From: Pegea sp. RAD2-039
Taxonomy: Eukaryota; Chordata; Thaliacea; Salpida; Salpidae
Length of the DNA: 64,000 bases
Reading direction: 5' to 3'
Assembly (NCBI GenBank): GCA_034620365.1
Contig: JAQGEQ010000192.1
Location: forward strand, 434,001-498,000
Shown here: piece by piece, positions 8,831-61,691 of the stretch
Position numbering within the stretch: the first letter of the stretch is position 1
How the letters are laid out: every line of letters starts with the position of its first letter
Program-made: the position numbers and the translations under genes
The notes under the pieces: generated by a model
What the model was told of the DNA's origin: nothing
Seen by the model: only the letters and a program-made list of their open reading frames with translations
Databases searched by the model: none

Positions 8831-9766
8831 ACTCTAATACGCCACCTACTGAGAGTTTCTTTTCCTCAATTATTTCAAACAGATCTCAAACATATCTTGT
8901 AAAAGAATAAAAAGAAATTTTATACAAAAAAATAACTTCATTTCCTATATTTAATCACTCTAATTGGTATAATAAGTCATCTTAAAAACAATTTATCTAT
9001 AATTGATGTTTGAGTACTACAGAAACCAACCAAAAGTTATAAAATGTTTTTATGTATACGATATTTAAAGATATTAGAAATGTTTTAATAAATAAATGTA
9101 ATAACAAGCTTTTCGAAATTTATTCAAAAAATCGATGATTAATCAGTAATTCTATGTTTTTGACAACAGAAATACCTCTAAAACATTTTTTTAAGAAAGA
9201 TAAAAAAGAAATCTTAATTGCTAGTTCAAAGATTTTATACAAATTGTTTTTTTTTAATAAATTAGATTTTCAATGTAAATTTCTAATGTTGCTTGCAAAA
9301 TGACATTATTACTAGTAAGTGATTTGCATATTAGTTTTGATTAATTATTCTATCTGAATAATAGATAGATTCAAAGTGTTTATGTTGGTGACACTAAAAA
9401 GCTTTGATGAAAACTATGGTTGATCCACATAAAAGTGGCAAAACTTTACGTTTCAATAAAATTAAGGAAAAGTTCTGACAAACCGACTTCATCAAAACAA
9501 GCTTGCAATGGTAATTGCCAATCCTGCAATAAAATTTGCTCTGGTGAAAATCCGGTAATTGAATGCTTTAAACGTCTCTCCTGGTTTCATCTCACCTGTA
9601 GTGATGTGAGCAAAACAATTTACGATATATTTGATAACAACCAAATGAAGCAAATGGGATTTAAATGGTTTTGCATTAAATGTAGAACCATTCAGATAAC
9701 ATCTACCTTCTCTAATTCTAATTCAAATCTATTGTCCGACATCAGCAAATCTATATCCGCTGAGTT

Positions 9767-9865
9767 GGCCAAATTTAAATTGGAAATTGCTACAGAAGTT
9801 GCCAAGATTGATGAGAAAACTTCTAGGCCAAATTTAAATTGGAAATTGCTACAGAAGTTGCCAAG
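9767..9865 (+). repeat. 59-bp tandem duplication inside LINE ORF1
   Basis: A 40-bp block starting GGCCAAATTTAAATTGG occurs at 9767-9806 and again at 9826-9865. The period is 59 bp, not a multiple of three, so the duplication itself shifts ORF1 out of frame and separates the zinc-finger part from the D-R-E-D-R part. Confidence 0.9.
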
Positions 9866-10336
9866 TAACATGGGCTCGGTGGTCGGTGATCCCGGTTCCG
9901 ACGAAAATGCTAGTATGGTGCAGCTTCTTGCCAAGAAGGTCACCGACACGCACAAACAAATTCACTTTAGACCGTGAGGACAGAGAAAACAATGTCATCA
10001 TCTCTAATGTCTCTGAGACTGATAAAGATGATGACAGTGAGTTTTTTAATCAAATGTGCTCTCAAAGCCTTGATTTTATGGATGTTCCAAAGGTACCAAT
10101 GACCAGACTTGGAGCGAAAAGCTCAGATAATCAAAGACCGTTGAAAGTATCCTTTCAGGAAAATTGGAACAAACGCAAGTTTCTTGCCAAGCTGTATAAG
10201 CTAAAGAAAAAATTCGAGCGCATTAGAGTAGCACATGATATGTGTGAAGATGATCACTTAGAAAATAAGCGCCTTCTAAAAGAGGCGTATAACCGAAATC
10301 AGAAGGAACAACCAACTGATTTCAAATACAAAGTTC

Positions 10337-10876
10337 GAGGTCCACCATGGGCCTTGAGAATTGTCAAGGTTTTTCAAAAAACGGAAGTGGCAAATAATCA
10401 TTGGACCCACATCTTCTTTTTTCAAACTCTCTCCGGACACAATTGTTAATACCCAAGATATCAATTTACAGAAGCCCATCATCAAATCTCACAAGCATCA
10501 AAAAGACAATTCTTCTATCACATTAGGTATGTTCTTCAACGCACGGTCGATTATTAACAAAAATTTGCAATTGAAAGCTCTTTTGCATTCCCAAGATTTC
10601 ACATTTGTTTTTATTAGTGAAACTTGGTTGAAACCGTATTATCCTGATTCTTTTCTGGTTGACGGTAATCTTTTTTGTGTTTTGCGTTGTGATAGACTGT
10701 ATGATAGAGGCGGCGGTGTTTGCGTAATTTACAAAACATCGCTTGCACCCAAGATGTCTATTTTTCGAAAATATTTAAATTATAAATTATGAGGTCCACT
10801 ATAGGCCTTGAGAATTGTCAAGGTTTTTTCAAAAAACGAAAATGAAAACTAACCACTGGACTCACATCTTCTTTTT
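10337..10876 (+). repeat. Dispersed duplication of an ORF1-end segment into the endonuclease region
   Basis: About 85 bp at 10337-10420, starting GAGGTCCACCATGGGCCTTG, recurs with a few changes at 10791-10876. The second copy interrupts the endonuclease coding region right after I-F-R-K-Y-L. No target-site-like feature is evident. Confidence 0.85.
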
Positions 10877-11632
10877 CACATTCTTCTAAGTCCAAATTTT
10901 CTTGTTTTATATGTACCTACCTACCACCCTCTAAAACTAATGATGAGGTTACTATTAAGGCCTTATTGAAGGTTCTGAAGAGTGTTGTGTGTCCTGAGTT
11001 ATATATTTTGGGGGATTTTAGTAAAATTGATTGGAATAACCCGAATTTAGCATTTATTGGAAAATCTTTTAACTTGGATAGCGATAATACTAATTCACCC
11101 TTTGTAAGCTTCCTCAATACCAATAACCTATCTCAGATGGTTACTTTTCCGACCCAAGTTAGTGGTAATACTTTGGAACTTCTTATCACATCAAAACCCG
11201 AGAACATTATCTACGTTGATCAGAAAGAACCTTTTGATCTGACATGAGATCACAACATGATTGAATTCAAACTTTTTCCATGAACATTAAAACTTCAAGA
11301 AAACGGAATTTTTATCGTGGAATTTATGATGGTATTAACAAGTTTCTATCAGGTGTTGACTGGATTTCTGTTTTTAACTCTTCCGAAGACATTTATACTA
11401 TTTACTCAAGGTTTACTAACATCGTTAAAGAGTCAATTGTGAAATTCAAACCATTATAAAATTTATACTTTTCAATAAAGTCAATAAAATACCACATTTG
11501 CCCAGATATTTAAGGAATTTACAACATTTTAAAAACCTCCTATACAAACAAACTAAAACAGACCCTTCCATCAAATCTCTGTACAAAGATCTTTGTATAG
11601 TTTACAAGAAATCTATTTCTAATTTCTATTTA

Positions 11633-11694
11633 GGAAGAGAAAGTGCAGTTTTATTTTCACCTTGGAAGAGAAAGTGTAGTTTTATTTTCACCTA
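11633..11694 (+). repeat. 31-bp tandem duplication in LINE ORF2
   Basis: GGAAGAGAAAGTGCAGTTTT begins a 31-bp unit at 11633, repeated from 11664 with one C-to-T change. The unit length breaks the frame between the region before the RT and the RT itself. Confidence 0.88.
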
Positions 11695-13514
11695 GCAAAA
11701 AAACGTTTTTTGGTTTCATAAATCGCAAGCTTAAGGCGAGATCTCAAATACCTCACTTACTTGATAACAGCAACCAGCTTGTGATGGAACCAGAGAATAA
11801 AGCTGAGTTGCTAAACAATCAATTTAATAGCGTTTTTATAACCGATGATGGAAATACTCTTTCTCTTTCCTACTCCGACATTCCTACAAATGTCTCTGAG
11901 ATGGTTGGTATAACAGTCGATATGGTATCTAAGGCTATTTCTTCTTTAAAATCATCAGTTTCCAACACCCCAGATCAGATCCCATCTTTGTTTTTAAGAA
12001 AAACTACTTCATCTTTATCACTACCCTTATCTCTGCTACTTAACATGACTCTGAAGCGAGGAAGAGTTCAACAAATTTGGAAGAAAGCCATTATTACTCC
12101 AATTCATAAAAAGGGTCCCAGAAACACCGCACTTAACTACAGACCAGTTTCGCTGACTTCAGTTATCTGCAGAACTCAAGAGCATATCATTTAAAATGAT
12201 ATGACCAGTCATTTGATGGAGCACCATCTAATATCTGATGTCCAACATGGCTTTATGAAACGGAGATCTTCCCTGACTCAACATCTCACTTTTCTTAATG
12301 AGCTTACAGCCCATTATGAAAGGAATAGTCCCTGTGACATCATGTATCTCAATTTTGCTAAAGCGTTTGATTCTGTCCCGCACAACAAGCTTATTACTGT
12401 ATTTAAGGTAGAATCCAACAAACTCGTGTAGAAAGATCTTTATCTACTTCTAGTCAAATTACAAGTGGTGTTCATCAGGGTTCTGTTCTGGGTCCCCTTC
12501 TCTTTTTAATTTTCATCTAAGACCTCATCAGAAGATCAGTAGCAGTAGATGATGTCAGAGTGTTTGTGTATGCAGATGACAGCAAGCTAGTATCTTGCAA
12601 AACTTCAAACTGCACTAAACGTTGTATAAAACTGGTCTACGAATTGGCAGCTCAGAATCCAGCCCACAAAGTCTGAACTTATAACTTTCTCCCGTAAACC
12701 AGCTGCCAATTCCTTGAACCAATACTCCATCAATGGATTTATTATTCAACAAATATTTTGGTCCTAAACTTTGGTATTACCTGTAAATCTTTGCAAAATC
12801 AATCAAACTTGTCTTCCTTATTATAAAGACCTTTAATTCTAAGGATCCATACTTCTTTATCAATCTTTTCAAGTTGTACGTACGTCCAATTCTTGAATAT
12901 AATGTCAGTGCATGGATGCCATATCAAGTTAGTGATATCAAAAAAATCGAATCTGTTCAGACCACATTTACGAGATTAGTATGCAGGAAACTTAATATTA
13001 AATATAATAGTTATAAACATCGTCTCAGCTTCTTCAATTTAGATACTTTAGAAATTCGACGGATTAAATACGACTTAATTCTTATTTTTAAAATTATCCA
13101 CAATTTAATTGACCTTCAGTTTGATGATTTCTTTTTCATTAGTCTTTCCCTCAAGTTATATCAACTCAGACGAAACACATTACATCTTAATAAGCCCATA
13201 TCACCTGGTACATTAATCAGATTGAATTTTTTTCTCATATCGCTCAATTAATACTTGGAACAATCTGTCATCAGACATTGTCATGTCGGACTCGCTCGCG
13301 TTGTTCAAAAAGAAGTTGAACTCTTATAATATTGCCAACATTGCCATTTCTAAGTTGTGAATTTTTCTCTTTTTTATTCTATTAACTTCTGTGAAATAGT
13401 TCACTGTTTTATGCTCTGAGGACTACTGAACTTAATAAATGTTATTTGTGAGAATGTGTGTTTTTGAAGGTGCTCTCTTTAGGCACCCTCCTTCGCATTT
13501 ATTGTAATAAATTA

Positions 13515-16500: not shown

Positions 16501-16600
16501 CAAAGTAGCTACGATAAATCATAAAGTTTATATTTATTTTTTTATAGTTACTTGGATCTGTTTAATAAAAAAATTAACTTTATTGTAAGTAAATCAAATT
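13515..16600. other. AT-rich intergenic stretch before the connexin gene
   Basis: About 3 kb with A/T runs and stops in all frames. A short TA run lies at 13614-13630. I see no gene, RNA gene or recognisable mobile element. The connexin promoter is presumably in the right half. Confidence 0.5.
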
Positions 16601-16611
16601 AAGTCTTTAAA

Positions 16612-16851
16612 ATGGCTTGGCACATTGTTGAAAAACTTTTGGAACAAGTTGGGGCTCACTCGACTTTAGTGGGCAAGTTTTGGACAACTTTCTTTTTCAT
16701 CCTTCGATTTTTGATGGTGGTGTCTATCGCTGATACAGTATTTGGAGATGAGAGAGGCAACTTTGAATGCAATATAGATACACCTGGATGTGAAAATGTC
16801 TGTTTCAACGATTTCAGTCCAATCTCACTAATACGATTGTGGGCACTCCAG
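16612..16851 (+). other. Connexin first coding exon, copy 1a
   Basis: This 80-codon exon encodes the N-terminus, TM1 and extracellular loop 1. Its donor is CAG/GTTAGC, weaker than that of exon 1b (CAA/GTAAGA). It is fully open and keeps all three loop cysteines, so it is unlikely to be an old pseudoexon. Loop residues differ from 1b: G-D-E-R-G-N against D-D-D-R-D-D, and N-D-F-S against N-A-Y-S. It may be an alternative exon or what remains of a truncated tandem gene copy. Confidence 0.85.
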
Positions 16852-19800
16852 GTTAGCTTCTAAGTGATTGTGTTTCAAAAAAACAAATTTTTAAAATGAT
16901 TTATTGAAATAATGATTAATGAAAAACTAATATTTATCAGCGAACTGTGATTGATTATTATTTATTCAGCTTAATTATTAGAAAGTAATTGGTATGTGGA
17001 TATAACATTGGAATAACTGTACGGGTCTTATTTGACAAAAGTCTTAAATAAAACATAATTTCTGTTGCATCACTTTTAAAAACAAATTTTAACATAATTT
17101 GTAATGAACTTAAAGACTTCATTTTTTCAAAGACTTTTCGAAAGTTGAAAAAATGAAAAGTATTTTAAAGTTATCAACGATGACTGAATAGTTTTTATTC
17201 TAAATTTGTTAAGTAGCTCATAACAAAATTTCACTAAAATAATTTCATGAACAAAAAAACATTTTCAACATCTATACTTAAATTTGAAAAACTAATTAGC
17301 TAGATCAAAACAAAAACGATTTATTTAGTTTATGCTTCTCATACAAATTGACTTATCAAAAAAAGTTTTTGTTGTCAATATTCTTATTTAGCAGTAATAC
17401 AAACTCAATATATCGGCAGATATATTTCAAATATAATATTACACAACTTGTAAAGTAAAATATTTTACTAAATGTTTTACATATTATAGATTGCAAAGTT
17501 TTCTCACTAAACAACTAGATATATTCAGTATGATAAATAAACAAAAAAATTTATTTGTACTTTTTTTAAGTTTTAGTTATTTGAAGTTAAATAATTGAAA
17601 AAAAGGATTCTTTAACAATGTCATAATCCTGAAGTCCAGCTTTTTAACTGTTTTCAACTTTAACGTTTACAGAGCAAATACAGAAATAAAGTTTGTCAGT
17701 TAATAATTGAAAGTACCCCACCTTCTGGTTTACAAAAGTGTTTTTGACCAGTGCAAACCCACAATTTAAATCTTAAAAAATTAATTTAGGTAGATATATT
17801 TTTGGTAAAATAATAGTTTCTTGAGCAGAAGTATTTTTTTAGTTATTTAATTTACTAAAATCAGTTTAATAGAAGCTGGCAGGGAATCATTTGTTAAACT
17901 TCAAAGACTAGAAAATATTATTTTCAAAATATCCCCGCAAAATACAATGTTCTAAATGTAACTTTTCTAACATATCTCGAATATTTTTAAATTAATCATT
18001 CAAATAAATACTAAAGTTGTTTGACTTTTCGTAAACTATTTTTTTCAAGTACAGAACGAGTGATTATAGTACTTCCAAAACATCTGATAGTCCTTGCTAC
18101 GTTTAGTTTTTAAATTGTACAAAAATTGAAACTAGATAAAATACTTTTTGTGTAAAATAGTTTAGAAATAAAGAAACAAATGAATCCGATATATATTCTA
18201 ACAACAATAAAATTAGAAACTTGAATACAATAACTAATTGTAGTTCAATTAAATAATATTATTTTAGCTTAAAAGTAATATAAAGTCTTTAAAATGGCTT
18301 GGCACATTGTTGAAAAACTTTTGGAACAAGTTGGGGCTCACTCGACTTTAGTGGGCAAGTTTTGGACAACTTTCTTTTTCATCCTTCGATTTTTGATGGT
18401 TGTATCTATCGCTGATACAGTATTTGATGATGATAGAGATGATTTTGAATGTAATATAGATACACCAGGCTGTGAAAATGTTTGTTTCAATGCTTATAGT
18501 CCAATTTCACTTCTACGATTATGGGCGCTACAAGTAAGATATGAAATGGACGATTTGTGACAAATGAGATAAAAAAAGAAAATTTTATACATCAGTTCTT
18601 CTATTTACAAAAATATCAATTTTTCTGTTTCACAAAATTTTTGTTGTTTTACAAATTTATGCAACAAAATATCCAACTTAAAATTGTTGGGTCTGACTTC
18701 GATATAATTTTATCTTAACTTCTTATTAAATGAGTTTGAATTACAAAATTTTCCAATTAAATCCACTATTTCTTTAACTTTTGATAAAAGCTTATAAAAA
18801 AGATTAATAGCAGCTAGTTGATGAAACTATATTTGAAAAGTTATTCATAAAATTGTATTTTTTACAGATTCTTGCTGTATCTTTACCTGCCGTTATCTTT
18901 ATGGTGTACACTGCTCATAAGATGGAAAAGATTGCTCAAGCAAGAAAACTGAAACAAGAAGAACAAAGTAAGTTGAAGAAAAAGCGTGAAGTCGCGAAGA
19001 AGATGGCGGCTACAATTAGATGGAAAACGTTAGCTGCAAACAGAAAATTAGCAGGGCAATCACCACCAGGTTAGTTTAAGTTTCATTAATTTCAATTTTT
19101 TTAATTAATTTTAGATGTAAACAAATTTTATAATAAAAATATTATTTTCTCTCAACTTTGCTGAAACTGAAGCTTTTTCTGAAACTGAAGATAAACCTTT
19201 CGATTCATTATCTGATTATAGTTTCAATCAAACTACAAAATTTAATAAAAAAATTGATGGTTTCGATTTATTTGCAATCATATTTTAGTTTAGTAATTGT
19301 TTTATGGTAAAATCAGATAAGTATTTGATTAGGTGTTGGGTGTGAGTTATTTGCTAAATGTCTGTCAACATTACTCTTATATAAAAATTACTTCTAGGAA
19401 TTTAGAAGTCACAAAACATCTCATTTATATTTGCTTACTTTTGTTAGAAAGCTTGAAAATAATCAGAGACTTTTGGTTTGAAGTTAAAATTTTAAGGAGA
19501 ATTGAAACAGCAACGCCAATATACATCGCTTTGTTTACAAAGTTCTTTTTGAAAATATCTTAGTGAAATGATTTACATGAAATCATGACTAAGTCATAAA
19601 TTGTAAAAATATATTAAAAGGTTTTAATTTTGGAAGCAATTGATGCTTAACCATCTAATTTTTATATATTTTTTATTAAACTTTTATTTTTTTAACTGTT
19701 ATAATTATCATTTTATCTAGCACTTGTCTAAACTTTTAGACTAAAAATTATCACTATAAACTTAATTTTGTAATTATTTTGTTGTCAAATTTTACAAATT

Positions 19801-20834
19801 TGTTTTATAATTTTTAGGTTATGAAGATGTAAATGGCGAAGCTGAAGTCAGTTTTTCATCAACTTCAAAGTTTTACTTTTTAATTGGTTGAATTCAAATA
19901 GAAACTTTTAAATTAAGTTGAAATATGATTCAATATTTTTAAATTTTACATCAAAAAGTTGATATGAAAATCTTCGAACTGATTAAAGCAGCAACTAAAA
20001 CCAAAACAAACTTTTATAGACAACAACTTAAAAAAACGTTGAATAATTCAAGATTTATTATGAAAAAATTGAAATAATTTTAATGATCAAAACAACAAAT
20101 TTTTAACAATTAAAAATATAAAGTTTTAAATTAAATTTATAAAGCTGTAAAAACAAAGTAAAAAAAAGGCTTTATAGGAACCTGAAGAAAAAGAAAAGGA
20201 AGAAAAGAAAGAAGATGGTGCAGTAATAGCTACAAAACTAGATTCAGACACACCATCTCGCCTTATGTTGGCCTATGTATCTCAAGTAAGTCTCAAAGAT
20301 CCACAAAAAAAATTATTCGAAAAAAATCATGAATTTTTTAACAGGTTTTACTTCGATTGGTTATTGAGATTGCTTTTATGATTGTTCAGTATCACACTTA
20401 CTCGTTTAAATTCTGGGTTCCTGAGATCTTCAAATGTGCAAGATATCCTTGCCCAAATGTTGTTGACTGCTTTATTTCAAGACCGAAAGAGAAAACCATA
20501 ATCTTATGGATTATGTTCAGTGAGTTATTAAAAAAAAATAAGTTTTTTCTGGTATTTATTTAAATATTTCACAGGCACTGGTCTTATCATGATAATTTTA
20601 AACGTGGTTGAACTATATCATATTGGAATTCATAAAATTTGGGAAGCCTGGAAAGCTCGTGGAAATGATATCACCAAAAAGTATAAGGTTGCTAGCAATA
20701 GTCTTCCACACTTCGGTAATGGTCGAAATTACCCGAGAGGTTATCCACAAGCTGTTGGTATTCGGGTTGGTTACGCCCGAAGCAGTCTTTCAGGAGAAGG
20801 GGGAGGTGACTTTGACGGGGATCAGTTTATCTAG
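16612..20834 (+). CDS. Connexin (gap-junction channel protein) with two alternative first coding exons
   Basis: Connexins are four-pass membrane proteins that form gap-junction hemichannels. Exons: 1a 16612-16851 or 1b 18294-18533, then 18868-19069, 19818-19846, 20178-20285, 20345-20519 and 20575-20834; all are GT-AG and phases agree. With one first exon the protein has 337 residues. Features: M-A-W at the N-terminus, TM1, extracellular loop 1 with the connexin spacing C-x6-C-x3-C (C-N-I-D-T-P-G-C-E-N-V-C), TM2 I-L-A-V-S-L-P-A-V-I-F, a Lys/Glu-rich cytoplasmic loop, TM3, loop 2 with C-x4-C-x5-C (C-A-R-Y-P-C-P-N-V-V-D-C) followed by F-I-S-R-P-K-E-K-T, and TM4. The cytoplasmic tail is short, Gly/Ser-rich, and ends D-Q-F-I. 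AATAAA lies at 21149-21154. Both first exons end in phase 0 at L-W-A-L-Q and can join exon 2. Chordate connexins are often intron-poor in their coding region; six exons is in line with tunicate genes. Confidence 0.95.
18294..18533 (+). other. Connexin first coding exon, copy 1b
   Basis: Same length and phase as exon 1a. The first 107 nt of coding sequence and 11 nt upstream (AAGTCTTTAAA) are identical to 1a; the following 133 nt have 24 differences. Its donor is strong and it is the nearer exon to the common exon 2 at 18868, so it is probably the default first exon. Confidence 0.92.
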
Positions 20835-24047: not shown

Positions 24048-27000
24048 TTAGACGGTTTCGTGCAAAGAATTGCGCATATTAGGTGTGGGGAAATCTGGTG
24101 CGAACGCCATTTTAGTTCGCCAATCAATGACAGGGGGTAGTGACGATCCGAAGAAGGAACATTGAAACAAATCAGCAGCATTGTGAAGGATTCCACGACT
24201 GGAAAAAGACGAATAAATCTAAAATTAATTTAGTTAAAAACACAAAGTACTCGAAAGGACTTTTAGACGAATGAATGCCATGTTTGAAAGATTTGAAATG
24301 TTCATAGCGAAAAGCATTGATTCGTTCATTGGTGGTGAGTCCAAGCCAAACCATCTGAACAATTTCACTGATAAACTTCTAAATAATCTCAGATAAGGAC
24401 ACTGACCTGATAGAGTTGGGACATTAGCAGTAAAGTGACCCAGATTAGATGAAAAACTGTATTGATAAAAATCCAATTAACCCAAGGTGTAGCCTTGAGT
24501 TGGTACATAAGTTTATCAACAAATACTACATCATCATCATGAATATGATTAAAGTTCCAATCTAAACACTAATCCGTCAATAACATCCTTGACATATCAG
24601 AAACTTACATCGAAACGCTGCCAGAACATGCCAGAAAAGAATAAGAAACAGTGAAGCAAGATAAGCAACAAAGTAATGGTGGTTACCAGAACCTATAGCG
24701 TTTAATACCCACGGACAATAATGATCATATCTTGCTACACATTTGTTTGTGACTGAACAATGTTTCGACCTTAATGGTTTTGCAATCTGAATAATTGAGT
24801 TACAGTTAGTATGCTGATTTGAAAATGATGATGATACAGACAAGACAAGTACTGCAAATACTATCTTGTCGTAAAGTGTTGGTTTCCGCCATATGTACAA
24901 TCATCTAGAAAGAAGACACATTTGATTATGTTTTGCAGATGTCGTTGACGTCTTACTCGTTTCTTATCATCTTCGTGAACAGCTATAAAGCCAGGATCAG
25001 ATTTAACGACTTTATAGAAGGAGTAGAACATGAATGAACTACAGGTGAAGTAGAAAAGTAAGCTAATAAATGAATAAGTTGTTGGAATATAAAAGAAGAT
25101 AGAAGTAATGTATGTCCAAAATTTTGTAGCACAAGAAATTGCGATCAGGAAACAACTCATATAATCCATTTGTCCCACACACACTCTGTAATTAGAAACA
25201 AATGGATGGAGATAAAGATGATGAAGTACCAACTAACAGTGTTAAGGCGTGTAAGCTTCCATAAAAGATCAGGATCAAAGCTAATTTAAGAAGCCATGAA
25301 TTAATGGATGCTTCAAAAATTACTCCAACCAAAAAGATTACAAGAAAAGGAAGAAGAAAAATAAATTTCTGTTGGAACTGAAAACGATGATTAGAAGATG
25401 ATAAATAGTTAGAGATCATTTACTGATTTGTTGTAAAGGAATCTCTTCCAGATATCTTCCTCTAGATCTAATCCTTGATTTTTGCGAGCATCTTTAATTC
25501 GACCAATTATCCAGTTGTTCGATTTTTGTTGTGCTATATCTAATGGGGTTTCTCCCTAAGATGATATAAATTTAATCTGTGGTCGGTGATTGGTTAATTT
25601 CATTGTAGAAAATTGAAAAGTTGTAAATAAAAGACTTGTTGGAGGTAAAATGTATTGACAGTTATTATTTATGTGTTGTGGTCTGTTTTATTTTCACAAC
25701 TTTATGTGAATCTAATCCTCACTGCATTTAGTAAAATTATTTGGTATTCTCATAATTAAACTTTAAAACGAATTTGTTTCAACATAATCTTAATTTTAAT
25801 AAATAAATAAAACCTTGGCGTTTTTGGCATCTAAGTCAGCTCCACTTCTAATAAGTAAAGTAATCACATTTGTGTTTTGAGAGGTACAAGCCCAATGTAG
25901 AGGTGTATTACGGTTTTGAAAATCTTTTTGGTTAACATTTGCATACAAAGATATTAAAGCCCGCGTAGGGTCGACACTAAACAAAAGAAAAATTACTTTT
26001 CAAAGGAGTTATTTGCATATAAACACTTACCCGAAGACTTTCATAGCAGCCCACATCAGAGCAGTCTTTCCCTTGGCATCGTATAAGTTTGGATCAGTTC
26101 CTTTTGCAATGAGATAAGAAACAATTGAAGTAAACCCACATTGAACAGCAACATGAACAGCGGCACACCCTTCAGAATCTCGTACAGCTGGATCTGCTCT
26201 GTGAATTTAAGGTAGTTTGTAGTAGAGACAGAACATTTTCGTTTTGTGGCTTCACTCAAGTTCTTATAAAGTTGGATTAAGTATAAGAGGTTTATTGATT
26301 CTATTTTTGGGTTCATGAATATTTATTCTCCGAAACAGAAGGTCTTTTAGAGCTAGAAGATGAAATTTATTGGTCACATGACTTAATTATAGTTTTGTGT
26401 TGTCTGAAATATTATCATATGAAATAAAAAAATGAAATAACTAACCCACAACGCATAAGAAGCACTACCATCTGTAAATGACCCTCTCTAATAGCCCAAT
26501 GAAGAGGTGTTGCCATTAAATCACCTCCTAGAACATCAACTACAGCTCCTTCAGAGATATAGTACCTACATATTAGTTTATTTACAAAAGCTAGTAACAA
26601 CTGATTGTAAAAGTGCCTGGCAATATCGAGTCGGTTGTTGATGGCAGCCCAATGAAGTACTGTAATATTATCTGCATCTGGCGTTCTAACATCGAATCCA
26701 TTTGCTACAACTTCCTTGCATCGTTCAAATACTCCATACTGTGTTGCTTTAACTATATCCCATGTACTAAGATATCAAGATTAGATATAAACAAATATAT
26801 GAATAAATTTTTAAGAAGTTTTAAATGATAAGTGTTAATATATTTTGATGATATAATCATAATCTTTTTATAATATTGATAAATATTATCATAGAATTTA
26901 GATTTATAATTTTTATTTAATATATGAAAATTTAAACATATTTTAAATCTATATTTGTTCGACGAAATAATTTTCTAAATGCTTGATTTTTATTTTATAA

Positions 27001-54446: not shown

Positions 54447-56755
54447 TAGAATGTAATTCTAAATCTTGTTTGCTAATTCATTTTATTCTTGATTTTTACG
54501 ATAAAACCAAATTATAAAGTAAAAGAACTATAACATAAAAGAGCTACGACAAAAAATCTTTTTCAAATTACTGAAGATGTCTTATTAGAAACACATGACG
54601 TTATCTGAAATCTTATTTCAATCTTTAAACAAAAACTTTGTTGTGATTACCACTAAAAAGATTTCTAATTAAAAGCAAATACTTTTAAATGTTTTTGGAT
54701 TAAGTCAATATCTATTATCAGTAAAACTTCGATTTAGTGAACTATTTATTAAGTGTAACACTACCAGTTTCTTCTTCTTCTTCTTCTTCTATTTTGCCAT
54801 ATCCAACTTTCCAGTTATAATTTACACTTCACATATTATTCTACAGTGTTTGTATTCTTTCTGTACTAATCTTAAGTTATGATATTAGTAAGACCTTTCC
54901 AAACACCTTTTATTAATAGTATTGGGTTTTTTGTCAGCGACAACACATGTTGAATTTGTCACTCACAGCTATGTGTTGAATAAACAAAATAATTTGTTGA
55001 TATTTAGGTTGAGCGATTTCATATCACGCTTTCAGGTATCTTTAAAACGAAGACAAGAACAGCTGATGTCGCGTTAGACTTTTGATAGTTTTATTGTTGT
55101 AAGGAGATACCTTAGGAGATTCTGTAAGACTTCCTAGATAGCGAAGCCTTTGCTTGCTTAGCATGCTGTAGATTGGTGTTAAGCCAGTGCACTATTAGCC
55201 TTTCTTGTTTAGGATCTTTTACTGCCAACTTAAACGTAAAAGTACAACGAAGACAACAAGAATGAAAGATATTAATGTTATTTTAATTAGCCTTCAACAA
55301 AGTCATAGTTTTATTGGCTTACAATAAAGAACAGCAGACAAGCGTCCTATAGTTGGGTTGCCTAGACCCTAAAAGTATTTCGTGCAAATGAATCAGATGA
55401 AAAGGTTGGTCCAACAGTACCTGTAGTTATTGCTGCATCATCAGTAAACACCAGGTTCACGGTAATTTGTTTCCTTGTTGTTCACTTTTAGCCGCGATAG
55501 ATTGCAAAGACTTCATTCAGTTCTTTAATTAAGATAGATTTCATCAGAAGACACATTAAATTATCTTTCTAATACCATTAAGAAGAAAATCACAAAGATT
55601 ATGGGCAAAGGACAAATCCTTGGTTAGAACCGTATTTGATGGTGAAGGATTCAGAGCAACTTCCATCAGACTCGACTTTAGTATTCGTGTAAAATGATCT
55701 CACAATGTTACAGAGGCGTGGTGGGCAACCAAACTTCAACAGTATCAAAAACAGACCTTCTCTACTGATAAGGTCAAATCGGTGGCAAGGTCAATGAATG
55801 TACTGTACAAAGTCCCATGATATTCTTTGTATTTTTCTGTAACTGACAACAATTTTTTTTGGTAGATCTAATTTCTATTTCTTCTGTTTCAAAGTTATAG
55901 CCTAACAAATTGATCGTTTGTGCAATATTAAAAATTGTTTATAATTTCTTTAAAAATAATTTATTGCTTTATATATAGTTCGAAAACCATTTATGATTAT
56001 TTTTACGTTATTATTTGCTTGGTAATAAAAAGGTAATTGAACTTATATAAGCTTTATTAGTGATTTGCATGAATAACTAAACTATTGTTTTCATAATAAT
56101 ATTTTTTTAGATAAGAATTTAAGTAAGTGAAATTTAGGAATAACTTTTACCTACCGAAAAGTAAAAGATTTTATGGCAATAATGATGGCACGAAATTCAT
56201 TTTATTCAAAAATATCAACTTTTAAAAAAGTATTGCTTTCAACCACTGATATTATAGCACAAGTAACATTTTCTAAACCAAAATCTTGATAACTTTTTTG
56301 CATAAAATCATTTTTGCTTGAAAATTTGATTTAACTTTCAAAGTATTACTAGGTTTTTTCATCATTTTAAGTTCCAAAAATAAAATGTTGTAAGCTATTT
56401 TTAGACCTGTTACTTGAGCTTCAGCGCAAAGTTAGGTTTTCTGTATCTATGTATTTTCTTTAGTCTCAATCCAAGAGAAAACATTTTTAGCTTAAAAATA
56501 ATTTTTGTACATAATAAAAATAATTTGTTTTAAATTTATCTTTAGAAAAACTGCAAAATGTATTTTTTAGACTTAAATGTTTTATTCATTTAATTACAAA
56601 ACGTAACAATTTATATATTTTTTCATAGAAGTCAGATTTCATTGAGATTGATATCAAAACGAGTGACAATATTGAAAAAGATCAGTACAACCAAATACGA
56701 GGCAAATTAAAACATTCATTTTGGAGCATGATACAGACTCGTTGAAAGATCTTTG
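54447..56755 (+). repeat. Long direct repeat, left copy (2.3 kb)
   Basis: The sequence from TAGAATGTAATTC at 54447 to 56755 recurs at 61692-64000 with a constant offset of 7245 bp. I see only four substitutions and no net indels, about 99.8% identity. It contains a CTT microsatellite (54768-54790), patches of coding-like but unrecognised sequence (55380-55460 and 55610-55800, the second with internal stops), and an exon-like open piece at 56629-56745. The copy in the second position runs off the window, so the full unit is longer or equal. Confidence 0.95.
56629..56745 (+). pseudogene. Exon-like open piece inside the direct repeat, unrecognised
   Basis: After the acceptor-like TTTTTTCATAG there are 38 open codons, starting K-S-D-F-I-E-I-D-I-K-T-S and ending S-F-W-S-M-I-Q-T-R before TGA. 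The amino-acid mix is protein-like, not the Lys/Asn/Phe/Ile mix of random AT-rich frames. I do not know the family and cannot find confident partner exons. An identical piece lies at 63874-63990. Confidence 0.3.
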
Positions 56756-57261
56756 TTCTTCTAAATTCCGGATATTCAGCTGAGATATCCAAAAACATCC
56801 TAAAATATTTTTTCAGCATCGTACACTTCCTTGACGCAGCAAAACGCATGCGGCTATTACGTCATGCTCCTTGTTTATTTCAAAAGTGAGTCTTTAACAT
56901 CCGAAACCTTTTAATCTTCTGATCTTTAGAACATCCGCAATTAAAAGCAGAGCAATCCTCACAACCTTCTCACGTGACTTCTTAAGTGACGAAAGTGATA
57001 ATGAAACTTCTTTCACTGATTGGAGTTACTGAAGAAAATTATGAGAACAAAGAAGTTATATCACAACAAGAAACCGATCCAAAAATTCTCGTTGTAACTC
57101 GTTAAAATTTAAGGAAAGACATAAAAAAATACGTTTCAGTGTGAGATTTTTCCGAAGGAGTTTAAAACCAAACAAGCATTAAATAAAGTGAATTTTTCTC
57201 TTTTACAATACTATGATTCTGTGCAATTCTTCATTGTCATATGCTTTTTCGTTTACACGTC

Positions 57262-57352
57262 AAATAGATCTAATTTGTGAGAATGTGCGTTAGCGAGAGG
57301 TGCTCTCTTTAGGCACCTTCCTTCACATTTATTGTAATAAATAAATAAATAA
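57262..57352 (+). mobile_element. LINE 3'-terminal fragment next to zinc-finger remnants
   Basis: GTGAGAATGTGCGTTAGCGA, then GAGGTGCTCTCTTTAGGCAC, and TTATTGTAATAAATAAATAA match the family 3' end. It lies directly upstream of the C2H2 remnant at 57364 and probably interrupted that gene. Confidence 0.88.
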
Positions 57353-57363
57353 AAATCATCGCT

Positions 57364-57474
57364 GTCAACACGGAATAAGACCTGAATGCTGTGGAATTTG
57401 CGACAAGTCATTTAAAAGTTCTGCTGAATAAAATGTTCATATGCGCAAACATACTGGTGACAAAAACTGAATAT
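57364..57474 (+). pseudogene. C2H2 zinc-finger remnant with an in-frame stop
   Basis: The frame reads C-Q-H-G-I-R-P-E, the end of one finger plus linker, then a finger C-G-I-C-D-K-S-F-K-S-S-A-E-stop-N-V-H-M-R-K-H and the linker T-G-D-K. Spacing is the canonical C-x2-C-x12-H-x3-H with one position changed to TAA. The frame ends in TGA a few codons later. The fragment is clearly derived from a multi-finger DNA-binding protein and is not intact. Confidence 0.6.
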
Positions 57475-57803
57475 AACCCCCCATATTCTGAATCTGAATA
57501 TAAAAGTATGCCTCTTAAAGTATTACTTCCACTCTCATCAGAATTATTGTCAATTTTTTCAGAGGAATCTTTATTTTCTTCAGGTTTGCTGTCATCTGGT
57601 TCTTCAGATTTCTCAGTTGCAATTGTATAATTACTCTCAGCAACATTTGAATGAAGTGGAATCAACTGCAGTACGTTGTCATTAGCAACTGAGTCTTGAG
57701 AATGTCTCTGAAGACGTTTTAGAAGGGTTATCAGAATCAAACAAAAAAGAAAAAGTATTAGAATTATTAGAGCAACAAACAAATAAATTTCGAGTTGTGA
57801 CAT
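57408..57803 (-). CDS. Possible single-pass membrane protein or receptor tail exon
   Basis: An ATG at 57803 opens 131 codons: M-S-Q-L-E-I-Y, a 23-residue hydrophobic segment (L-F-V-A-L-I-I-L-I-L-F-L-F-C-L-I-L-I-T-L), a basic stop-transfer K-R-L-Q-R-H, and then an acidic Ser/Glu/Asp-rich region that looks cytoplasmic. The frame remains open upstream to an acceptor-like GAGACCAG at about 57833, so this could be the transmembrane exon of a type I receptor. Codon content looks real, with few low-complexity runs. The last 15 residues overlap the zinc-finger remnant on the other strand and may not be coding. I do not recognise a family. Confidence 0.35.
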   Translation of the reverse strand: MSQLEIYLFVALIILILFLFCLILITLLKRLQRHSQDSVANDNVLQLIPLHSNVAESNYTIATEKSEEPDDSKPEENKDSSEKIDNNSDESGSNTLRGILLYSDSEYGGLYSVFVTSMFAHMNILFSRTFK

Positions 57804-57849
57804 TTCAACTTTTCTTTCATCCAGTAGTTTCTGGTCTCAACAAGCTTGA

Positions 57850-59155
57850 TGGTAGTCTGTCAACAGCAGTTCTTGTTGAAGTTAGTCTATTCCAAACAGC
57901 TGTGAAGATCTTGAAGTGAGACAATGTTGGTAGCTGTAGCCTTATAAAGTTTCTGAATCATTGCATATAATCATTGCAAAAGTAACTTTGCTTGGAGGTG
58001 AACTGATTTCAAGAATAATTTTTTAGCTTTTTGTAATGATTAAAAAGAACAAAATTGAATTTCATATTTACTATAATGCTTTAACCTTAACTTTATAAAA
58101 AAATTTTGGAAATAAGTATAATTTGCTTTTGTCAATTGGTTTAGATAAAAACTAAACTCGGCAGCATTATTTTTCTTATTTAATTTTCAAATAAAGTTTA
58201 CAAATACTTAAAAGGGTGATCTTAAATGATTAAACATTTTTTACAACTCGGCAAAATAGATCTTCAGTTTGCTGATTCTATAAACAGTTTATAAAATATT
58301 TTTCAACTTTAAAAATTAATTTTTTTGAAATTTGGTCACATTCCTAGAGGTTCTTAGTGAGTTATTACAACATTTATTAAATAGTTATTAGAATTTTTTT
58401 ATAGCATCAGCTTTAAAGTTTTATAATTCTACAAAGTAAAAATGTTAACTTATGGGTACTTCTTTAGCACCTTTTTTTTAAACAGACTTGTGTTGACTAG
58501 AAGTTTTTTAAAACTTTATTTAAAGATAATTTTCTTATTTCATCAGGAAGCTAAATGGTTTGTGATTTTTGTTTTGCTTTAAATTAATACTTTATCACTT
58601 CAAAAAAAAATTGGTTGAAAGCTAAACATTTCATATAAAAATATATCTTAAAAATATGAATTGAAAATTGGATTTATGATCATTTTTCAAAGGGATAATC
58701 TTCTAATATAATCAAATATTTAAAATGGGTGATAGCCCTTATTATTTTACTTGTACACCCTGAGTTACTTTAATAATGGATTTCAGATTTTCAACAAATT
58801 AGCCAATTTTTTTGAACAATAGTCAAACTTTTAGCTTTCTTTGGTAAAAAGCTTGTAATGAGCTGATAATAACCCTTCCCTTTAAAAATAATGTAAAGTT
58901 TAATATTTTCATTTAGTTGATTTATTCTTTATAACAGCGAAATTATCGAGGTGTAAATATGTAATTGTGTACATCAGCTAGTGGTATTTATTCTTAATTT
59001 TTTCTTTCAACGTTACTCAATTGCTAATTCGTAATCGAAAGTGCTAGGATACAGAATTTTATTTTTAATAAACTAAGTTTTATCCTGATTTCTAATAAAT
59101 TTTCATCAGTTCACTTATTGGCTAATTAAAATTTAGACTTTAGACAATCGACAAT
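57850..59155. other. AT-rich stretch between membrane-protein frame and zinc finger
   Basis: No gene supported. Any extracellular exons of the membrane protein would be expected at the left of this stretch, but I could not find them. Confidence 0.4.
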
Positions 59156-59159
59156 TTGT

Positions 59160-59294
59160 CGATTTCAAAATGTGGACTGTCAAAGAATACTGACAAGATC
59201 AGATAACTATGGAAAAACTTTCCAATGTAAAGTTTGTAAAAAAGCCTTCAGACAAACTGGCAATCTGATAGTTCACAAGAGATCACATACTTAA
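59160..59294 (+). pseudogene. Isolated C2H2 zinc-finger exon
   Basis: The open frame contains one complete finger, F-Q-C-K-V-C-K-K-A-F-R-Q-T-G-N-L-I-V-H-K-R-S-H-T, with C-x2-C-x12-H-x3-H spacing, and stops with TAA right after the H-T. Residues at the DNA-reading positions are intact. Preceding residues (N-V-D-C-Q-R-I-L-T-R-S-D-N) look like a degraded finger. It could be a last exon of a functional gene, but the neighbouring finger at 57364 carries a stop, so I class it with the remnants. Confidence 0.5.
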
Positions 59295-61040
59295 TGTGAC
59301 ATTTGTGATTAGTTGGTGATTAAAACTTCAGTCTTATATTAACTTATTTTGATCTAGTGTTTGTCCGGAAAAAATTCAATTTTTTAAATTTTTTGTTATA
59401 AGTTTTATTTATTTAAAACTCTGAGAAAATGCTTGTCTTTTACAGCAGTTCTAAATTGCTTTTTTTATACATTTTTTACTTATTACTTTTTACATTGTAT
59501 GTTTCAAAGGTTTTCTTTTGACTAATATTAAGAAGTACTTCTAATGTAAAACGATTAAAAAGATTTCACGGAAACTGTTTCTAACTATTTAAAAAGAATG
59601 TTTTGTAAGTTGACAGTCAGAAATAAAAACTACTTGTCTAAATAGATCGAAACATAAAACATAATCTTATAAATAATGATAATAAAACTTATATAGAGAA
59701 ATCGTGTGACTAACAATTCAATAGGAAAGACAATATGTTTTAAAAAAAAATTTGAGAAATAGTATTTACAAATTGATGGTTCTCAAAGATGAATTACAAG
59801 AAGTTGGATTAAACTAAATAAGTATTTTGTTGTTTCAGTAATTTGACTATGCAGTTTAAGTCTTAAATACTTTTTGTAAATGTAGCTAATAAGTTCCAAG
59901 CATTTTTTGTTAGATATCTCAGATTTAAGTAATTTTACTCCTCTTTATATTCACTGAGTTTTTGTCTGATTGCCGTTTAAAGGACATAGAGGAAACTTAA
60001 TTTTAAATTAATTTACTAGGATCCACAGAATTTTAATTATTTTAGTTATGTATATAAACATCAGTTACAGAAGATTACTGGGAAAATTGAATGAAATAAA
60101 ATATCAAATATATTTTTTACAAGAGATATTTTTGTGTATACTAATGTTAAAACTAAAAAGATAGAAAAATGATAAACTTTTCTATACAATAGAAGGATAA
60201 AGAAGGTAATAAGATCCACGGAGTTTTGTTTATAGTCGCTGTTATGTGCTTCCTATTATGTTTTTTTAATATTTATTCCCTGACATTACAGACACTACAT
60301 CACTAAATGGTTCTGTAAACTCAATACTATTTACCAACTTTGCCAAACTCCTTGCTACTAAATCCTTTTCAGTCTTCGTTGGAGTTCACTAATCTATGAC
60401 TTCAATCAAAACAACTCAAACTCGCCAACGACAAATGATTACACGTGATAGTAAGTAGAACTTCCAGCTGTAGCTCACCATCAAGTTACTTTTATTAAGG
60501 TAATAATTATATTTCCTGCTTTTAGGTCATTAAAGATTTAAACTTTCACCTGTAAAGTCTTTCCCCGTTTACGATCCTTTGCTGCTAGCTTTTTCTGAAA
60601 ACTCGAATAAGACTACAAAAATGAAAAGTGTTCAGTTTATTTTTGTTATCCATCTATCAAATTAAAAGCTTCAGTGGGGTACAATAAAGTGTGACAGACA
60701 AAAGCTGTAGAGATGGCATTATCTAGTAGTAGAATAATCTAGATTATGAAATAATTTACATAAAATGATATCAAGTGAACCCCTATTAAAGTTTATTTAA
60801 GTTCAAATAAGTTTTTACTAGCCAACAAATATTAATTCATAAATGGCTTTCAGTTATCTTAAAATGCAATAAATTCTAAATAAGGTAATTCTTAAAAAGT
60901 TAAAAGCCATGTATTATGTCTTTGTCGGTCATACATTATTGTACACCACTGAAGGTTTGACTTTGATGAAGATTAACGATAATTAATCGGACATCTTTCT
61001 TGTTTTTGTCTTCCTCGAATCTTACATCTAAACTGGCAGC
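59295..61040. other. AT-rich stretch without supported genes
   Basis: Nothing recognisable. The right part (60230-61040) is a little richer in GC and might hold decayed exons. Confidence 0.4.
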
Positions 61041-61250
61041 AAAAGGTTCTAATAAGTGAAGGAATGTTATAAACGGGGAAAACTTAAAGGAGACTGACTT
61101 TACAAAAATGTACAGCTAGCTAAGAAGAAAAAGACTTCACTGGTGGAAAAGAATCTGTTGTTTCTTCTTAAGTCGACAGAACTATCAAATAACAACTACA
61201 AGAGCAGCTGTTCCTATCTTTGTTTTAAAAATATCCAAAAGCCCGATATG

Positions 61251-61424
61251 AAGTCGTTCAATCTCAATACCAGCAATTATTTATTAATTCAACGCATAAC
61301 TACGAATGACGAATTCAAGAGCTATTTTGGTAGACATAAACCAACGATTATGCGTAAAGATGTAATTAGAAGGTATTATGTACATTACAATAAGATTTCT
61401 ACAAAAGGAATACAAACACTGTAG
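61251..61424 (+). other. Open frame of unknown status
   Basis: From ATG 61251 there are 57 codons, M-K-S-F-N-L-N-T-S-N-Y-L-L-I-Q-R, ending G-I-Q-T-L and TAG. The composition (K-P-T-I-M-R-K-D-V-I-R-R-Y-Y-V) is protein-like. The frame is open back to 61143 without an ATG. No family recognised, no splice partners; it may be a decayed exon. Confidence 0.2.
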
Positions 61425-61691
61425 AAAGATAGATGAAACGTAAATTATAAATGAAAAGTTTGATATGACAAAACAGAAGAAGGTAAACAAACTATCAGTG
61501 TGACACATCACTTGAAAATAAAACTACTTGAATCTTATCTTCAAATCAAAATTACTAGAGATGATGAAGATTTTGATGTGGTGATGGAATCTTGTCTGTC
61601 AAGCTTTGTTTACTCTATTAAAGAAGTTGTTACTCTACTGGTGGTGCTTACAGTTGTTGTTAATCGAATGTGCCGTATCATGTAATTCAAG

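Follow-up and report, generated by a model that had tools for sequence, protein, structure and literature searches.

A connexin gene that probably has two alternative first coding exons, 1a and 1b, was found in a stretch of 64,000 nucleotides from the salp Pegea sp. RAD2-039 (G000:C3:434001-498000; hereafter the window), which has 27% G+C and is part of a 105.7-Mb assembly. The two exons each code for the N-terminus, the first transmembrane segment (TM1) and the first extracellular loop (E1). They would be used one at a time and joined to a common set of exons 2-6, and both would be expressed and spliced to position 18868. The evidence comes from the anatomy of the gene and from the constraint that both first exons show at the protein level.

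Two First Coding Exons and One Downstream Set

The exons of the gene are listed below. Their domain names (transmembrane segments TM1-TM4, cytoplasmic loop, extracellular loops E1 and E2) are carried over from homology to the connexin family.

16612..16851, + strand: first coding exon 1a (N-terminus, TM1, E1); open frame, Pfam connexin match, phase-0 donor CAG/GTTAGC
18294..18533, + strand: first coding exon 1b (N-terminus, TM1, E1); open frame, Pfam connexin match, phase-0 donor CAA/GTAAGA
18868..19069, + strand: common exon 2 (TM2 and start of the cytoplasmic loop); AG/GT borders, open joined frame
19818..19846, + strand: common exon 3 (cytoplasmic loop, 29 bases); AG/GT borders and phase
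20178..20285, + strand: common exon 4 (cytoplasmic loop); open joined frame, similar exon in the sister gene C71
20345..20519, + strand: common exon 5 (TM3, E2 with C-x4-C-x5-C, start of TM4); joined frame and cysteine pattern
20575..20834, + strand: common exon 6 (TM4, C-terminus, stop); open joined frame

Each first exon runs for 80 codons from an ATG to a phase-0 end, and 1442 bases separate the two. Joining either of them to exons 2-6 resulted in 338 open codons. These results agree with an earlier note on this DNA, which had described two intact 80-codon first exons about 1.4 kb apart with the same end phase and one downstream set. The donor type of 1a, GTTAG, recurs at exon 2 of the same gene and at exon 2 of C71. 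The Pfam profile PF00029 matched residues 3-80 of 1a (109.6 bits, E 2.6e-31) and of 1b (107.7 bits, E 1e-30) at a cut-off of 31.3. The E1 cysteines are at positions 53, 60, and 64 in 1a and 1b alike, and the C-x6-C-x3-C scaffold is thus kept, as the note had also claimed. The E2 cysteines (C-x4-C-x5-C) in exon 5 are aligned with those of Cx50 and Cx46. By profile and cysteine pattern the product is a connexin, and its homologs suggest that it would form an oligomeric channel of four-transmembrane subunits.

Exons 2, 4, 5, and 6 had no match between the two first exons (16852-18293) even at E 10, and no further match better than E 0.1 in the whole window, exon 3 being too short for either search. 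Genome-wide, exons 5-6 matched only themselves and C71 at the DNA level (73% over 168 of 490 bases), with no second near-identical copy. These results bear on the idea that 1a and 1b come from two complete tandem genes, the first of which has lost its exons 2-6 or had them collapsed in the assembly. Full tandem connexin genes do exist in this genome (in C30, E1 exons 9 kb apart have their own downstream exons), near-identical E1 exons in C258 at a spacing of 6.2 kb look like a tandem repeat, and a 7.2-kb tandem repeat lies 33 kb away on the same contig as the gene. However, the 1442-base interval, which holds no remnant of exon 2, 4, 5, or 6, matched only itself in a genome search that skipped very common words, and the contig is 4.5 Mb long. 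Loss in the assembly is therefore very improbable.

Divergence, Probable Gene Conversion, and Selection

Exons 1a and 1b are identical at 216 of 240 bases and 73 of 80 residues (91.25% by tblastn, E 2.3e-49), which is far above chance. Their noncoding surroundings aligned about as well as shuffled sequence (z of -1.0 upstream, 0.9 downstream, and -0.3 for the intron against the interval). Since no likeness remains in the noncoding flanks, the duplication is old. The following tract, which the earlier note had missed, is identical in the two copies:

16601..16716 (= 18283-18398), + strand: 11 bases before the ATG and codons 1-35

Beyond codon 35 the copies stay identical as far as coding base 107, and codons 36-80 contain all of the 24 base differences. 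There are 13 silent codon differences, and the chance that none of them would fall in codons 1-35 is about 0.00025 (200,000 draws). Gene conversion is the natural reading of such an improbable distribution, and codons 1-35 were probably homogenized in this way.

In codons 36-80, the synonymous divergence (dS) is 1.04 and the nonsynonymous divergence (dN) is 0.075, a ratio of 0.07, although a pairwise estimate from 45 codons is coarse. There are no stops and no indels. The low ratio and the intact frame indicate that selection has maintained each copy as connexin-coding sequence. A four-sequence tree of the same codons gave a bootstrap value of 44 for the relative age of 1a and 1b. These data also bear on the possibility that 1a is an unused relic of a partial tandem duplication, kept intact-looking by gene conversion from 1b. 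The homogenized codons 1-35 are what such a relic would show. In contrast, codons 36-80 have escaped homogenization and still have the low ratio with no stop or indel, whereas free drift of one copy over half the divergence would be expected to push the joint ratio to about 0.5. The donor of 1a is also intact. We consider a relic unlikely, and two alternative first exons remain our preferred reading.

Docking Surface and Pore Mouth

Residues 1-80 of the query matched residues 1-80 of human Cx26 chains, so the numbering agrees with that of Cx26; this was taken from the match ranges, the printed alignments being with other connexins. The seven differences between 1a and 1b are at positions 45 (G/D), 47 (E/D), 49 (G/D), 50 (N/D), 67 (D/A), 68 (F/Y), and 74 (I/L). 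Six of them are in E1 and the seventh is near its end, which bears out the earlier statement that the exons differ mainly in extracellular loop 1. The parahelix at 45-50 reads G-D-E-R-G-N in 1a and D-D-D-R-D-D in 1b, with net charges of -1 and -4, respectively, so that 1a has three fewer negative charges per subunit.

The same note had proposed that one gene makes two channels with different docking partners. The first half of this proposal, alternative first exons of one gene, is favored by the anatomy and by the constraint on both proteins. The second half, that the isoforms accept different partner connexins, was not borne out. E1 does take part in docking and holds six of the seven differences. 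However, the two exons have the same N-I-D-T at residues 54-57, and E2 is encoded by the common exon 5 (20345-20519). Passages of PMC5414816 give N54, L56, and Q57 as the E1 docking contacts of Cx26 and ascribe connexin compatibility to E2. Because 54-57 are identical and E2 is shared, the known docking surface would be the same in both products, and a docking switch is improbable.

The differences are concentrated elsewhere. In Cx26 the parahelix spans E42-F51, with G45, D46, A49, and D50 lining the pore, and at position 49 Cx26 has Ala where Cx30 has Glu; charge at both 49 and 50 dampens hemichannel function, and Cys at position 49 leaves gap-junction channels unaffected (sections of PMC11415306). 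The mutations G45E and D50N/A occur in disease and yield aberrant channels, and Cx26 D50N abolishes gap-junction channels and spares hemichannels (same sections of PMC11415306). Three of the four pore-lining positions (45, 49, and 50, not 46) are among the seven changes in codons 36-80; the hypergeometric probability is 0.009 if all sites are taken as equally tolerant of change. At 49/50, 1b has an acidic pair (D-D), as has Cx30, whose hemichannels are dampened by E-D, and the pair of 1a is neutral (G-N). Different gating would be the likeliest consequence of the swap. It is possible, at rather less than even chances, that the two products share their docking contacts and differ in the parahelix that gates connexin hemichannels at the pore mouth.

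A slightly stronger contender, itself a little short of even, is that the exons serve regulation: 1a and 1b would provide tissue- or stage-specific transcription, and the protein differences would hardly matter. Most transcript variants of mammalian connexins come from the use of alternative 5' regions and promoters and leave the coding region unchanged, according to a passage of a review (PMC8432592). Positions 49/50 are also variable across the connexins of this genome. The clustering of changes in the pore-lining positions speaks against this explanation, but the probability given for it is uncorrected for site tolerance.

Several points, besides the coarseness of the dN/dS estimate, weigh against a gating switch between two kept exons. 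Among the other connexins of the genome, the 49/50 pair is highly variable: 5 of 17 readable strings, 1b included, are acidic at both positions, in a sample of 18 strings from connexin matches (17 long enough) that covers part of the genome's E1 exons. Because of this variability, the changes may be drift at tolerant sites. That none of the three docking positions (54, 56, and 57) changed would be expected with a probability of 0.59. Residues 56 and 57 of both exons depart from Cx26; Q57 does not vary among human connexins, yet 1a and 1b have T there, and in place of E42 and K61, which belong to the calcium and charge network of Cx26, they have T and E. Cx26 is possibly an imperfect guide because of the departures at 42, 57, and 61. 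Since Cx26 D50N loses junctions and keeps hemichannels, 1a with N50 might be a hemichannel form more than a junction form, which would count against the two products docking alike. Finally, the acceptor-like site before 1b, described below, is no better than background.

Other Connexins of the Genome

The connexin profile matched 54 places in the genome, several of which are exons of one gene. The nearest relatives are C71 (73% identity to 1b) and C258 (68%). The first exons of C71 (L009 6889-7128) and C258 (L011 4979-5218) also have 80 codons, a phase-0 end and a GT donor, and no second first exon was found in the 9.9 kb searched around each of them. Positions 45, 49, 67, and 68 are common to 1a and C71, and 47 and 68 to 1a and C258; positions 45, 49, and 74 are common to 1b and C258, and 47 to 1b and C71. 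In a separate observation, the two states have a likeness in the sister genes: G45/G49/K50 of C71 resembles G/G/N of 1a, and D45/D49/E50 of C258 resembles D/D/D of 1b, by convergence or ancestry.

Among the 54 places, there were 8 same-strand pairs of profile matches within 12 kb of each other that overlapped by at least 15 profile positions. The pair described here, with an overlap of 79 positions, is the sole full first-exon pair among them. The pair in C30 (40 positions) was rejected as alternative exons, as each of its two E1 exons has its own TM2, TM3, E2, and TM4 exons, indicating two genes. It serves as a control, since a like search yielded no such exons between 1a and 1b. The pair in C258 near 2.11 Mb (40 positions) was also rejected because of its repeat-like appearance; a connexin-like E1 exon and the sequence downstream of it are repeated there about 6.2 kb apart (G000:C258:2109260-2115566; L035, L036). 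The remaining five pairs (C85, C46, C71, C28, and C81; 23-47 positions) were tentatively taken for neighboring exons read across introns, though a shorter duplicated exon might lie among them.

Upstream Sites and Spliced Leader

Where transcripts receive a spliced leader, the first exon must be preceded by an acceptor. The choice between 1a and 1b might be made through two promoters, through spliced-leader addition at either exon, or through skipping of 1a. Acceptor-like sites were found before both exons:

16534..16547, + strand: acceptor-like site TTATTTTTTTATAG (matrix score 10.3), with 64 bases between its end and the ATG of 1a; might accept a spliced leader or a leader exon
18254..18267, + strand: acceptor-like site (score 5.4), with 26 bases between its end and the ATG of 1b; not distinct from background, 32% of which scores as well

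The site before 1a was matched by none of 20,000 background draws, the matrix being built from 11 sites and the draws being made on both strands of a noncoding pool of about 6.5 kb. For the sites before the first exons of the sister genes, 49% (C71) and 17% (C258) of the draws were as good. When 1a is joined to the site 26 bases before 1b, the reading is out of frame and runs to a stop. A GTAAGT that follows the 1a acceptor-like site at 16585, still ahead of the ATG, delimits a possible 37-base leader exon (16548-16584); this is a weak candidate, and GTAAGT occurs at 0.41 per kb in the local noncoding sequence. The 11 bases directly before the ATG (16601-16611 and 18283-18293) are AAGTCTTTAAA in 1a and 1b, and nearly the same, AAGTCTTTAGA, in C71 (L009 6878-6888), though C71 has otherwise diverged.

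Elsewhere in the assembly, the Ciona spliced leader followed by GT was present at 99 exact places among the matches listed, 33 of them in a tandem array in C4. This array (G000:C4:1135044-1142219; L031 holds 1135000-1136000) has a period of about 199 bases and carries a Ciona-type leader with a GTAAGT donor. With up to 2 mismatches allowed, the leader had 585 matches and the reversed pattern 77. The leader of Ciona intestinalis is given as the same 16 bases in the relevant passage of PMC7986045. We therefore take this tunicate to use a leader of the Ciona type.

Comparison With Known Systems

The closest parallel is the Drosophila innexin Shaking-B, whose forms (ShakB Lethal, Neural, and Neural+16) have alternative first thirds and a common remainder, the alternative part holding the rectification properties, as related in part of a review (PMC5412853). 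The gene described here is similar in its homologous first exons with the same end phase and one downstream set, which are known from genome sequence alone. It differs in that innexins are unrelated in sequence to connexins, that the split is at the E1/TM2 border after codon 80, and that the first exons are 91% identical duplicates. In the same part, the review states that coding introns in innexins give invertebrates several gap-junction proteins per gene, which vertebrates with connexins cannot achieve (PMC5412853). The main text of an eLife survey of chordate innexin loss has no words beginning with "splic" or "exon" (PMC8769644). A connexin may, on a tentative view held with still a little less confidence than the gating difference itself, have independently reached the Shaking-B solution, in which a swap of first exons keeps the docking address and changes the gate at the pore mouth (neutral or acidic at 49/50).

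Vertebrate connexins such as Cx32 also have alternative 5' exons or promoters, but their coding region is unchanged, as far as that part of PMC8432592 describes them, whereas the two first exons described here code for residues 1-80. Cx23 (GJE1) likewise has several coding exons and alternative splicing. However, its variation is at the third exon (a stop or another acceptor) and only four of the usual six extracellular cysteines are present; the passage concerned describes no duplicated first exon (PMC10598745). Cx26 and Cx30 provide the parallel at the parahelix, differing at 49 (Ala/Glu) with a dampening charged 49/50 pair, as 1a and 1b differ in G-N and D-D (passages of PMC11415306), but they are two paralogous genes and not two exons of one gene, and positions 45, 47, and 50 also differ here. 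The author of the earlier note did not know the mechanism from any connexin. Alternative coding first exons of a connexin gene were not reported in any of the titles and abstract beginnings listed, all from open-licence papers.

With two coding first exons kept by selection, this tunicate connexin would give the chordates a counterpart of Shaking-B. It would also amount to a natural experiment in which the parahelix takes two states while the rest of the subunit stays the same. If the proposed switch is true, the choice of first exon could let cells with one gene build mixed or rectifying junctions, or either silence or open their hemichannels.

Other Features of the Window

Just upstream of the connexin gene, at 9411-13251 (+), there are frames that, judged by their motifs, resemble a retroelement of the long interspersed nuclear element type; a 3' part recurs at 1655-2399 with about 90-93% identity. 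Pfam searches with four frames of this region gave only a PHD match below the cut-off, and neither tRNA genes nor Rfam families were detected when the window was scanned for them. Downstream, 24580-26774 (-) contains exons for ankyrin repeats and a DHHC palmitoyltransferase by Pfam, and our guess is that they belong to one gene of the ZDHHC13/17 kind. The 7.2-kb tandem repeat mentioned above occupies 54447-61680 and continues from 61692 past the window end, reaching 4.9 kb beyond it, and its copies are 98.1% identical over 7240 bases.
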